Under the pieces are notes generated by a model, which did not search any database, was not told where the DNA came from, and was given only the letters and a program-made list of their open reading frames with translations. From the IMG/VR virus record IMGVR_UViG_3300027792_000002, positions 1 to 64,000 of that record: a DNA stretch of 64,000 bases. One strand, 5' to 3'. Of the stretch, positions 16,368 to 53,600 are shown piece by piece; the first letter of the stretch is position 1; each line of letters opens with the position of its first letter. The position numbers were made by a program, and so were the translations under genes. The stretch comes from a virus.

Positions 16368-18203
16368 ATGTTTTCGTTATCAAAAAAACAGGAATCAGGG
16401 TTAGAGGTTTTATCCAACCATAAATATATACTTTTTTATGGTGGTGCAAGGAGCGGAAAAACAGTTTTGATAATTTTCTATATACTTTATAGGGCTACTA
16501 AACGCAAATCCCGCCATGCCATACTCCGGTATAGGCTTTCCCACTTGGAACAATCAATAATCCACGATACGTTCCCCAAAGTAGCAGAAATGATGGGGGT
16601 AAGCTATAAAATGAACTACCAGAAGTATTTTGCCGTATTGCCCAATGGTTCGGAGATATGGTTCGGGGGGTTGGACGATAAGGAAAGGACTGAAAAAGTA
16701 TTGGGAAACGAATACAACACCATATTTTTAAACGAAGCATCGCAGATAAGCTATTCTGCGTATAATACGGTGCTGACGAGGCTTTCACAAAAGGTTTTGA
16801 TGCTGGATAAAAAAGGCAACCCTGTCATTGGCGACAATGGTTTGCCGATAGAAATAGAAAACAAACTGATAATCGACGAAAACCCGCCTACTAAGGCACA
16901 CTGGACATATAAAGTATTCCACCTTAAAATAGAACCCAAAGAAAATGTTTTATTGAGCAGCCCTGAAAAATACGGGCATTTGCAATTAAATGCTTCCGAT
17001 AATTTAGAATATATAGGCAAAGACTACCTTGAAACATACAATGACCGACCAAGGGAATACAAATTAAGGTATTTGGAGGGCGAATTTGCAGACGAGGTAA
17101 AAGGTGCTTATTTTACGGAAGCAAATTTCAATAAATACAGGGTAACGCAACAAGGGTTGCCCGAAATGAAAGAAATAGTTGTGGCTATAGACCCGGCTGG
17201 GACTACCGGGGCAGGGTCTGATGAAACAGGGATAATCGCAGTTGGCAAATCTTTTGATGGGCATGGGTATTTATTGGAAGATGCAAGCGGCAAATACAGC
17301 CCTGCCGAATGGGCAAAGGTCGCCTGTAATTTATATGATAGGCTAGGCGCAAGGTACATCATCGCAGAGGTTAACCAAGGGTGGGACATGGTAAAGCATA
17401 CGATTCAAACGGAATCTGAATCCGCAAGGGTATTGGAAGTACGAGCCACAAAGGGCAAATTAGTGAGGGCAGAGCCAGTATCCGCGCTTTACGACAACGG
17501 GAAAATACACCATGTGGGCGGATTCCCTGACTTAGAAACAGAGATGGCTACATATACTGGTGAAAAGGGCGAAAAATCTCCTAATAGGATGGATGCGGCA
17601 GTATATGGCTTTGTCCATTTGTTCCCATCTGGGGTATTGTCCGATTCCGAGAATTTCTCTAAAGGGAGGCTCAATTATTTCGATGAGTATGATTTTACTG
17701 GAAGCGTGGATATTTGCTACATAAAAATAGCCAGTATTGCCGCGAAAGTTTCCCCTTCCTATAATTTTTCAGCTATTTTCGCCAGCATAAAAGACAACAA
17801 GGTATTCGTCAGGGATTGTTTGTTCAATGACTGCCTACCTTCCGAAAATATTGATTCTTTGGCTAATGGCATAACCAAGTTCCAAAGCCAAAAGGTGTTC
17901 TTGGAGTGCAATGTTTCGTTTCTGTCGTTTATGCCAGAATTGAGGCACGCAGCAAACAAGCAGATATGGACTATAAAAGAGTTCAGCAAAGAGGACAACA
18001 GGATAATCACAGAAGTAAACTTCATACGCAACTCGTTTGCCTTCGACAAATCCAATGATTCTATCGGGTATAGGGACTTTATGCGGCAATTGAACTCATA
18101 TACTAATATTTCCGGGGAAAATGAATCTTTTGCCCCTGCCGTGCTTTCCAGCATATCCTATGTTGCCAAAAACATGTACGGCAAATTATTGGCAAAAAAA
18201 TAA
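16368..18203 (+). CDS. terL: Terminase large subunit
   Basis: The 611-aa DNA-packaging motor. Walker A GGARSGKT (25-32), Walker B NTIFLNEA (117-124), coupling motif ENPPTKAHW (171-179). The RNase H-like nuclease has its acidic residues at D275 (VVAIDPAGTTG), E334 (IIAEVNQGWD) and D409 (NRMDAAVYGF). The nuclease block resembles the P22-like branch. Residues 440-600 look like a second RNase H-like unit (FSAIFASIKDNKVFVRDCLF, KVFLECNVSF, KEDNRIITEVNFIRN) without obvious acidic triad. This makes the protein longer than usual. It would bind the portal at 18621. Confidence 0.9.
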   Translation: MFSLSKKQESGLEVLSNHKYILFYGGARSGKTVLIIFYILYRATKRKSRHAILRYRLSHLEQSIIHDTFPKVAEMMGVSYKMNYQKYFAVLPNGSEIWFGGLDDKERTEKVLGNEYNTIFLNEASQISYSAYNTVLTRLSQKVLMLDKKGNPVIGDNGLPIEIENKLIIDENPPTKAHWTYKVFHLKIEPKENVLLSSPEKYGHLQLNASDNLEYIGKDYLETYNDRPREYKLRYLEGEFADEVKGAYFTEANFNKYRVTQQGLPEMKEIVVAIDPAGTTGAGSDETGIIAVGKSFDGHGYLLEDASGKYSPAEWAKVACNLYDRLGARYIIAEVNQGWDMVKHTIQTESESARVLEVRATKGKLVRAEPVSALYDNGKIHHVGGFPDLETEMATYTGEKGEKSPNRMDAAVYGFVHLFPSGVLSDSENFSKGRLNYFDEYDFTGSVDICYIKIASIAAKVSPSYNFSAIFASIKDNKVFVRDCLFNDCLPSENIDSLANGITKFQSQKVFLECNVSFLSFMPELRHAANKQIWTIKEFSKEDNRIITEVNFIRNSFAFDKSNDSIGYRDFMRQLNSYTNISGENESFAPAVLSSISYVAKNMYGKLLAKK

Positions 18204-52175: not shown

Positions 52176-52298
52176 TTAGTCTGTGATAATTGACAATTGT
52201 CCACAGGCTGCACCGTTTTCAATCTCACTTTGAGTTGCTACGGCAACGGCAAAATCATAACCGTTTTCTTCTAATTGACTTTTAATTTGTTCAGTCAT
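52176..52298 (-). CDS. Separate C-terminal segment of an RlmN/Cfr-like enzyme (40 aa)
   Basis: The frame from ATG 52296-52298 to TAA 52176-52178 encodes a 40-aa peptide (MTEQIKSQLEENGYDF...) ending GAACGQLSIITD. NGAACGQL matches the C-terminal methyl-carrying cysteine motif of RlmN/Cfr enzymes (AACGQL), with Cys at residue 32. It begins 11 bases after the stop of the radical SAM gene and in another frame, so it is a separate peptide, not a simple read-on. Both could be one gene split by a frameshift, or a natural two-subunit enzyme. Confidence 0.7.
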   Translation of the reverse strand: MTEQIKSQLEENGYDFAVAVATQSEIENGAACGQLSIITD

Positions 52299-52309
52299 TG
52301 CTTTATGTA

Positions 52310-53092
52310 TTAAATTAAATTAATTCCCTCTACTACTCCACTTCCAAGCCCATTCTTTTCAGAAGTAGTATTCGGGTTTATTGGGCTTATTTTTATGAAA
52401 AATTTATCCTTATCGAAATACTGTTTAATCTTTTCAATATCAAAGTCTTTTTCTTCTACCAAAGTTAAATTTATGGTAGTTTTCAAATTGCTTTCGGTTC
52501 TTACATTTCCAAGTTGCTCAATGGTCATTTTATTTTTGTAAGGTATTAGCCAATTCCTATGCTCTTCATCTAAGCTATGCAAAGAAAGTTGCAGCGTTAC
52601 ATTGTCTTTTATCCAAGTAAAATCGGCATCTTTCAAACCAATAGTTGAAATGTAGTGGTGTGTATTTGGGTAGTGTTGGCTTATTTTTTCAATTGCCTTT
52701 TTAACGTTTTCAATATTTAAAAACGGCTCTCCCATTCGAGTATAGTTTATTTTAAATTCTTTACTATTCAATGGGTTTATGTTGTTTTTAGCAATTATAA
52801 ACTCAACTTGTGTTGTAATTTCTTGCCAAGTCAAATTACGCCAACTTTTCATTTGTCCAGTTGCACAAAACTTGCATCTTACAGGGCAACCACTCATTAC
52901 ACTTACCCCAATCATCCAACGTTCTGAACGGTCGCTTAATTCGTAGTTCTCGAGCATATTTTGTTTTCTACCTATTGCATCTTTTGTATAAAAAGGCAAA
53001 AAGGTATCAGTAGTTTCAATCAACATTCCGTCCTCTAATTCGAGGCAATAAACTCTACCGTTTTTAAAGTTCTTTTGTTTTTTAATTTTCAT
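52310..53092 (-). CDS. RlmN/Cfr-like radical SAM protein lacking its C-terminal cysteine
   Basis: The 260-aa product has the CxxxCxxC cluster (SGCPVRCKFCATG, C69, C73, C76), then YTRMGEPFLNIENVKKAIEK, STIGL, LQLSLHSLDEEHRNWLIPY, as in RlmN/Cfr radical SAM methyltransferases that methylate adenosine in 23S rRNA or tRNA. The usual C-terminal cysteine is absent; it is encoded by the 40-aa frame 52176-52298 next door. RlmN is normally about 350-390 aa; this lacks the N-terminal RNA-binding extension. It lies alone with its partner in one cassette. Substrate unknown. Confidence 0.75.
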   Translation of the reverse strand: MKIKKQKNFKNGRVYCLELEDGMLIETTDTFLPFYTKDAIGRKQNMLENYELSDRSERWMIGVSVMSGCPVRCKFCATGQMKSWRNLTWQEITTQVEFIIAKNNINPLNSKEFKINYTRMGEPFLNIENVKKAIEKISQHYPNTHHYISTIGLKDADFTWIKDNVTLQLSLHSLDEEHRNWLIPYKNKMTIEQLGNVRTESNLKTTINLTLVEEKDFDIEKIKQYFDKDKFFIKISPINPNTTSEKNGLGSGVVEGINLI

Positions 53093-53122
53093 TGTATAAA
53101 TATTTTAAGATTAAAAATGCCC

Positions 53123-53256
53123 AGCTACTAACACCGTATATAAGTAATTGGGGTTTAGCTTGTTAATTAATCATTCTGCCACGTATTTAGGTCTGTATAT
53201 TTTGATAGGTTCGCTCTTCGCATTCCCCAACTACTCATATACGAACCGTTACCGCC
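53123..53256 (-). repeat. attC-like site 3.2
   Basis: Core GCTACTAAC (53123-53131), arm CGTATATAAGTAATTGGGG, return arm CCCCAACTACTCATATACG, core GTTACCGCC (53248-53256). Arms pair at 17 of 19 positions. Confidence 0.85.
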
Positions 53257-53258
53257 AA

Positions 53259-53600
53259 TTAAAACGAAATCTGAAACATTATCCCCTTTTCGTCTTTGAT
53301 TAGGTCAGGTCTATCTGTTGCCCATAAACCAACTGTTGTATCCTTGTGATGTTCAAGTTTTTTGATATATCCAATATCTTTTAAATATTGTAAATATTCT
53401 TCTTTTGAGTTTACATTATCAGGAATATAATATTTCTGGTTTTCATTTTCAATAGGGTCAGGTACAAATACCCATTGCTTTCTGTAATTATTTTCTTTTG
53501 AGTCAGAAAATTCATACATAAATCCACCTTCTACTCTCATTTTTCTAAAAAGAAATTTTCCTGAATCTTCGTGTACATCAATAATTTTGTGTAATTCCAT
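53259..53600 (-). CDS. Cassette-borne hypothetical protein (113 aa)
   Basis: The 113-aa product (MELHKIIDVHEDSGKFLFRK...) has strand-rich aromatic parts (RKQWVFVPDPIENENQKYYI) and a helix (SKEEYLQYLKDIGYIKKLEH). Cassette ends GTTACCGCC (53248) and GGCGGTAAC (53619) are complementary. No family recognised. Confidence 0.65.
   Translation of the reverse strand: MELHKIIDVHEDSGKFLFRKMRVEGGFMYEFSDSKENNYRKQWVFVPDPIENENQKYYIPDNVNSKEEYLQYLKDIGYIKKLEHHKDTTVGLWATDRPDLIKDEKGIMFQISF

Follow-up and report, generated by a model that had tools for sequence, protein, structure and literature searches.

RlmN (E. coli YfgB; TIGR00048) is a class A radical SAM methylase that acts on A2503 of 23S rRNA and on A37 of tRNA, and Cfr methylates C8 of A2503 in 23S rRNA. 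Class A radical SAM methylases, as far as the papers cited here describe them, use a cysteine within the catalytic chain itself as methyl carrier and depend on a second cysteine for product release; without this second residue, Cys118 in RlmN and Cys105 in Cfr, the enzyme-RNA crosslink is not broken (PMC9692996, PMC13001441). The arginine and serine of Cfr that are equivalent to R344-K345 of RlmN, an equivalence drawn by hand alignment, contact RNA.

Here we describe a conserved, selected and co-diverging pair of phage genes that is homologous to the RlmN core and to the RlmN segment around Cys355. The sequence studied, hereafter called the window, spans 64 kb (positions 1-64,000) of the IMG/VR virus record IMGVR_UViG_3300027792_000002 and encodes terminase, portal and tape-measure proteins. 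Among open-access papers, none was found that deals with RlmN in split form, with an RlmN-like enzyme of phages or with an mCys carrier acting in trans, and judged from that literature the two-gene arrangement is apparently undescribed.

Two open reading frames match the RlmN core and its cysteine segment

The first residue of the large subunit corresponds to RlmN residue 80, where the HhH domain ends; the subunit lacks both that domain and the C-terminal cysteine segment, and its C-terminal end is common to all relatives. The small subunit is a homologue of the RlmN C-terminal segment around Cys355, and its GAACGQL motif, found in the context ENGAACGQL, aligns to RlmN C355-G356-Q357. In the window, 11 nt (52299-52309) lie between the two open reading frames, and the frames differ (Table 1). 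A preliminary description of this DNA had reported a protein with a CxxxCxxC cluster that stops short of the methyl-carrying cysteine, and a short downstream frame with its own ATG, in another frame, that carries GAACGQL; the ORF list confirms both.

Table 1. Positions of the gene pair, its motifs and surrounding features in the window, and of accessory genes in related loci
Feature	Position	Strand	Basis
Large subunit, 260 aa, RlmN-like radical SAM core	52310..53092	-	ORF; RlmN/Cfr profile matches
Small subunit, 40 aa, own ATG	52176..52298	-	Profile, RlmN alignment, purifying selection
GAACGQL motif, predicted methyl-acceptor Cys32 (codon 52203-52205)	52194..52214	-	A30, A31, C32, G33 and Q34 invariant
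CxxxCxxC cluster motif, residues 69-76 (Cys 69/73/76)	52865..52888	-	Family-wide invariance
Gly62 codon, site of RlmN resolving Cys118	52907..52909	-	Gly in 78/78 split-family proteins
Thr118-Arg119 codons, in place of RlmN M176-G177	52736..52741	-	Invariant, 38/38
Block with both genes, 95% identity to contig L136	52120..53118	-	blastn
Spacer upstream of pair, long imperfect palindrome	53119..53258 (folded as 53093-53265)		Fold, -37.5 kcal/mol
Spacer downstream of pair, palindrome	52017..52175		Fold, -55 kcal/mol
Further spacer between minus-strand genes, long imperfect palindrome	53601-53875		Fold, -118 kcal/mol
Type A radical SAM gene with methyltransferase-like gene, examples	L038:4786-6001; L015, L037, L040, L042, L043, L047, L153, L161, L173, others		
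RiPP-precursor-like proteins	L163:8946-9248; L164:7395-7739; L184:9155-9442; L191:8789-9076; L193:8782-9087; L162:8774-9124; L096:9007-9381		

The large subunit scored well below the curated cut-offs of the nearest profiles, with 78.3 bits against RlmN TIGR00048 (cut-off 290), 56.1 bits against Cfr NF000424 (cut-off 530) and 51 bits against TIGR04432 (cut-off 550). Profile matches in the PDB were to RlmN (E 1e-19 to 1e-21) and Cfr (E 1.6e-17). The small protein matched no family in NCBIfam, Pfam or PHROGs, and a PDB sequence search with the small peptide alone returned nothing significant; with the small-protein profile, the protein in the window record was recovered at E 6e-27, which is far beyond chance.

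A structural comparison was made with an AlphaFold2 test chain from L092, a relative in which both genes are in frame with a single TAA between them, here read as glycine. This read-through chain is artificial, and its covalent join through a short linker favours docking of the small part. The model had a mean pLDDT of 86.7 and a pTM of 0.88, with about 66-69 for the loop of the small part. Foldseek returned nine significant PDB matches, all to RlmN or Cfr, and VIA-align superposed model residues 1-308 on residues 80-361 of E. coli RlmN with a Z of 24-25 and an rmsd of 2.4-3.0 A; the best match outside RlmN and Cfr, to unrelated radical SAM families, reached a Z of 14.3. As the superposition includes the C355 loop, the model places the small peptide where the C-terminal Cys355 segment of RlmN lies, helped by the covalent read-through.

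The two parts are separate genes throughout the family

Profile searches yielded 203 loci representing 87 independent contig groups; the split family accounts for 83 of these and single-chain relatives for the other 4. All 83 are phage or prophage contig groups. Both parts were present in 77 of them, in every case as separate open reading frames and never as a fusion. Among the first 46 relatives (56-97% identity), the C-terminus of the large protein falls at one shared position, and 43 have a distinct downstream AACGQL open reading frame inside the fetched stretch. The large and small genes lie as close as 1 nt and as far apart as 5.6 kb; in two copies the small gene is upstream, and all three relative frames are seen. 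A Shine-Dalgarno-like site precedes 52 of 75 small open reading frames, as exemplified by AAAAGGAGGTGA on clostridial contigs.

The exceptions fall into three kinds. In two groups (L044 and L154) the small gene is absent and the contig ends soon after the large gene, and in two others (L079 and L114) the contig is cut within or next to the pair. The last two (L108, 213 kb, and L122, 101 kb) have the small gene, with no large gene detected in the record; the small peptide may therefore have a different partner at times. In the 354-kb phage record of L111 (record G009, 17122-17515), the large gene is broken up, with matches only to pieces 20-115 and 207-260, and the small gene adjoins it.

In the window, the two frames meet at a short AATTT-type repeat, which at first made a slip look possible. 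Slippage at this repeat was rejected because the relatives stop at the shared position with other spacings and frames, and a programmed frameshift or read-through fusion was likewise rejected given the three frames, the kilobase gaps and the upstream small genes. That the window contig carries a sequencing error, a recent frameshift or a decaying gene is vanishingly improbable, since the same end recurs in every relative, complete phage genomes included. The two open reading frames are separate conserved genes and not one frameshifted gene. The preliminary description had asked whether the parts are always apart in homologues, and the pairs answer that they are; neither one-chain versions nor a frameshift error turned up within the split family, and the single-chain phage relatives that do exist are more distant and lie outside it.

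Comparison with RlmN, Cfr and single-chain phage relatives

The pair shares with RlmN the radical SAM fold with its beta-hairpin extension (Z about 25), the CxxxCxxC and MGEP motifs, and an ACGQL acceptor loop with the Cys355 equivalent; C125, C129, C132, G338 and C355-G356-Q357 are all kept. A glutamate is also found at the E105 position, by structural offset only (model residue 1 = RlmN 80): because of a family-specific insertion, the MAFFT alignment misplaces RlmN E105, and the match of E26 to E105 rests on this offset. With Cfr (NF000424, PDB 9p0p), the likeness in modelled structure and sequence suggests a common fold and mCys chemistry class.

The differences are equally consistent. Unlike RlmN, the family consists of two polypeptides, is phage-borne and lacks the N-terminal HhH RNA-binding domain; Cys118 is replaced by glycine in all 78 proteins, M176-G177 by Thr-Arg in all 38, and R344-K345, before the cysteine loop, by a hydrophobic residue and alanine. 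Within the large subunit, no cysteines other than the three cluster ligands are invariant. Unlike Cfr, the family is split and has no Cys105 equivalent, and the genes alone do not imply C8 methylation or antibiotic resistance. Of the features that define class A, the radical SAM core with CxxxCxxC and MGEP is present, the methyl-acceptor cysteine in an ACGQ loop is present on a separate polypeptide, and the resolving second cysteine, the HhH domain and the single polypeptide are all missing.

These differences bear on the reading that the pair is an ordinary RNA methylase in two pieces, forming m2A or m8A in tRNA or rRNA with an outside thiol or base in the place of Cys118; such an enzyme may protect phage or host tRNA or may tune translation. 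The RlmN core fold and mCys loop, a mildly basic large subunit (median pI 8.2) and the phage tRNA genes found near the pair in some carriers are consistent with this reading. We hold it only as a tentative possibility, however, in view of the missing HhH domain and Cys118, the replacement of R344/K345, an acidic small subunit (median pI about 4.3) and a window without tRNA.

Single-chain RlmN-like proteins of Stenotrophomonas phage ANB28, Vibrio phage 166E36-1 and Salmonella phage Arash resemble the split family in being phage-encoded, with an RlmN-like core and no HhH domain, but each is a single polypeptide that retains Cys118 and has GGGCGQLW close to its C-terminus. The radical SAM protein of Bacteroides phage Versailles (phrog_24834) has threonine at the Cys118 site and the same arginine before MGEP, and differs from the split family in being a single polypeptide that has TCGNA where the family has ACGQL. 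The Cys118 site of the four single-chain phage relatives is thus cysteine in three and threonine in one. In the phylogenetic tree, the split family forms one group whose nearest neighbours are single-chain phage relatives, with moderate support (85/79), and the Versailles protein, on a long branch, adjoins the split clade with modest support. As the Versailles single chain is also without Cys118, loss of this cysteine alone does not explain the split. The split family is not simply RlmN cut in two.

Selection, mobility and distribution of the pair

In four close pairs of small genes, summed differences amounted to about 32 at 100 synonymous sites versus 6 at 374 nonsynonymous sites. Purifying selection on the small gene is thus strong, which bears out the earlier impression that the small frame is maintained. 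The large and small genes also co-diverge: their protein distances correlate with a Spearman coefficient of 0.70 over 75 pairs and of 0.39 within the close family, and in both cases none of 999 shuffles was as high.

The pair is contained in a block that is 95% identical to contig L136, and almost all of the sequence flanking this block is unrelated between the two, which indicates that the pair moved as one unit. The spacers around the pair look like cassette boundaries, and the region resembles a gene-cassette array. The preliminary description had placed tRNA-like elements in this array, and here it did not hold up: ARAGORN detected no tRNA in the window, Rfam yielded nothing between 49 and 64 kb, and the spacers are long imperfect palindromes. 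The candidate tRNA or tRNA-like elements near the pair were rejected accordingly.

Cultivated carriers include Kehishuvirus 'tikkala', Moorella phage MTATph1, Vibrio phage D479, Pectobacterium phage Arno162 and Yersinia phage P778, and their records annotate the pair members as hypothetical or plain radical SAM proteins. In Vibrio phage D479, the small protein (L050:5800-6081) contains two tandem AACGQ cysteine units. The pair is rare outside phages; among bacterial chromosomes, the small gene was found in 1 of 395 Bacteroidota genomes, namely the centre genome itself, and no copy was present in the PLSDB plasmids.

Genomic context

Only the pair itself was recognised in the fetched stretch of about 34 groups, the window included. 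Elsewhere, genes for both NAMPT and NMNAT/Nudix lay within the fetched flanks, in varying order, often in tight operons and often touching the pair; this was seen in 18 of the 83 groups as a raw count, and the link to NAD salvage is suggestive only. In one 101-kb record without a detected large subunit, an operon (L122:6958-10157) runs NMNAT/Nudix, small AACGQ peptide, NAMPT and macrodomain. In addition, the gene for the single-chain relative in Vibrio phage 166E36-1 adjoins those for NAMPT and PRPP synthetase.

These neighbourhoods, with the L122 operon and the changing gene order among them, and the new invariant Arg119 would fit a pair whose substrate is an NAD-related nucleotide (NAD, NMN, ADP-ribose or a derived signal), with a role in phage NAD salvage or in the evasion of NAD-depleting defences. 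We nevertheless consider this substrate rather unlikely. No NAPRTase-family gene was found in the window or in the crAss-like phage or Moorella phage records, 15 of 50 further records carry one, mostly elsewhere in the genome, and large phages often carry NAD-salvage-type genes in any case.

Other radical SAM genes also recur beside the pair. A type A gene, with a MoaA/viperin-like core of about 263 amino acids, was found in 18 groups together with a methyltransferase-like gene of 147 amino acids, and the two stay together, either between the large and small genes or next to them. Type B, a further radical SAM gene, was found in 15 groups, often with a protein of about 95-125 amino acids that has a leader-like N-terminal part and a C-terminal core, mostly DPC...C; these proteins are possible phage RiPP precursors. 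In one locus (L193:9088-10098, the same site as L029:5109-6101), the reading frame of the small unit matches that of the type B radical SAM protein, to whose C-terminus the unit is apparently fused, with an internal Shine-Dalgarno sequence and ATG present despite the apparent fusion.

The small peptide could itself be read not as an enzyme subunit but as a RiPP-like precursor on which the large radical SAM protein acts. A radical SAM protein paired with a small cysteine peptide would fit, as would the tandem units of D479 and, in some groups, the nearby Cys-terminal precursor-like proteins and other radical SAM genes. We judge this quite improbable, as homology to the RlmN C-terminal segment extends over the whole peptide, the residues around the cysteine are nearly invariant where a RiPP core would be variable, and the partnering large protein is without a SPASM or recognition domain.

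Discussion

Taken with the homology of both parts, we consider it likely that the two open reading frames encode one two-component class A-like radical SAM enzyme that uses its methyl carrier in trans. In such an enzyme, the small peptide would dock at the place of the RlmN C-terminal loop, and its invariant cysteine would take a methyl group from a first SAM, with Glu26 as the base. The large subunit would then cleave a second SAM and abstract a hydrogen from the S-methylcysteine to give a peptide-S-CH2 radical, which would react with an sp2 carbon in the N-heteroaromatic ring of its substrate, most likely an adenine. Finally, an outside group could release the methylated product, or the peptide might leave attached to it.

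The replacement of Cys118 by glycine and the detachable nature of the carrier make it probable that the small peptide is exchanged or consumed as a carrier. The substrate is probably adenine or another N-heterocycle, with RNA and a nucleotide of NAD metabolism as candidates beside others. This outcome keeps one half of the two-subunit RNA methylase that had been proposed for this locus, namely a maintained RlmN-like pair whose small peptide bears the acceptor cysteine; action as a methylase of rRNA or tRNA is not supported, in view of the absent HhH domain, the change of Cys118 to glycine, the lost Arg/Lys pair, the acidity of the small subunit and a genomic context of NAD salvage and further radical SAM genes.

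A more radical version, which we think unlikely, holds that the small peptide donates a methylene group and is consumed in doing so: as there is no resolving cysteine, its Cys-S-CH2 group would become joined to the adenine or nicotinamide ring of a nucleotide or RNA. The product would then be a phage-encoded peptide-nucleotide conjugate of a new kind, the split would let the enzyme turn over while the peptide is spent, and the tandem units of D479 would be extra donors.

In the split family, the methyl carrier is parted from the catalyst and the second cysteine is dropped, an arrangement shared by dozens of diverse phages, some of them cultivated. If the two-component enzyme is confirmed, methyl loading, radical formation and product release could each be studied on its own in a system of two proteins. 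The enzyme may also lead to a new modification that phages make to RNA or to an NAD-type nucleotide, possibly tied to defence against NAD depletion.
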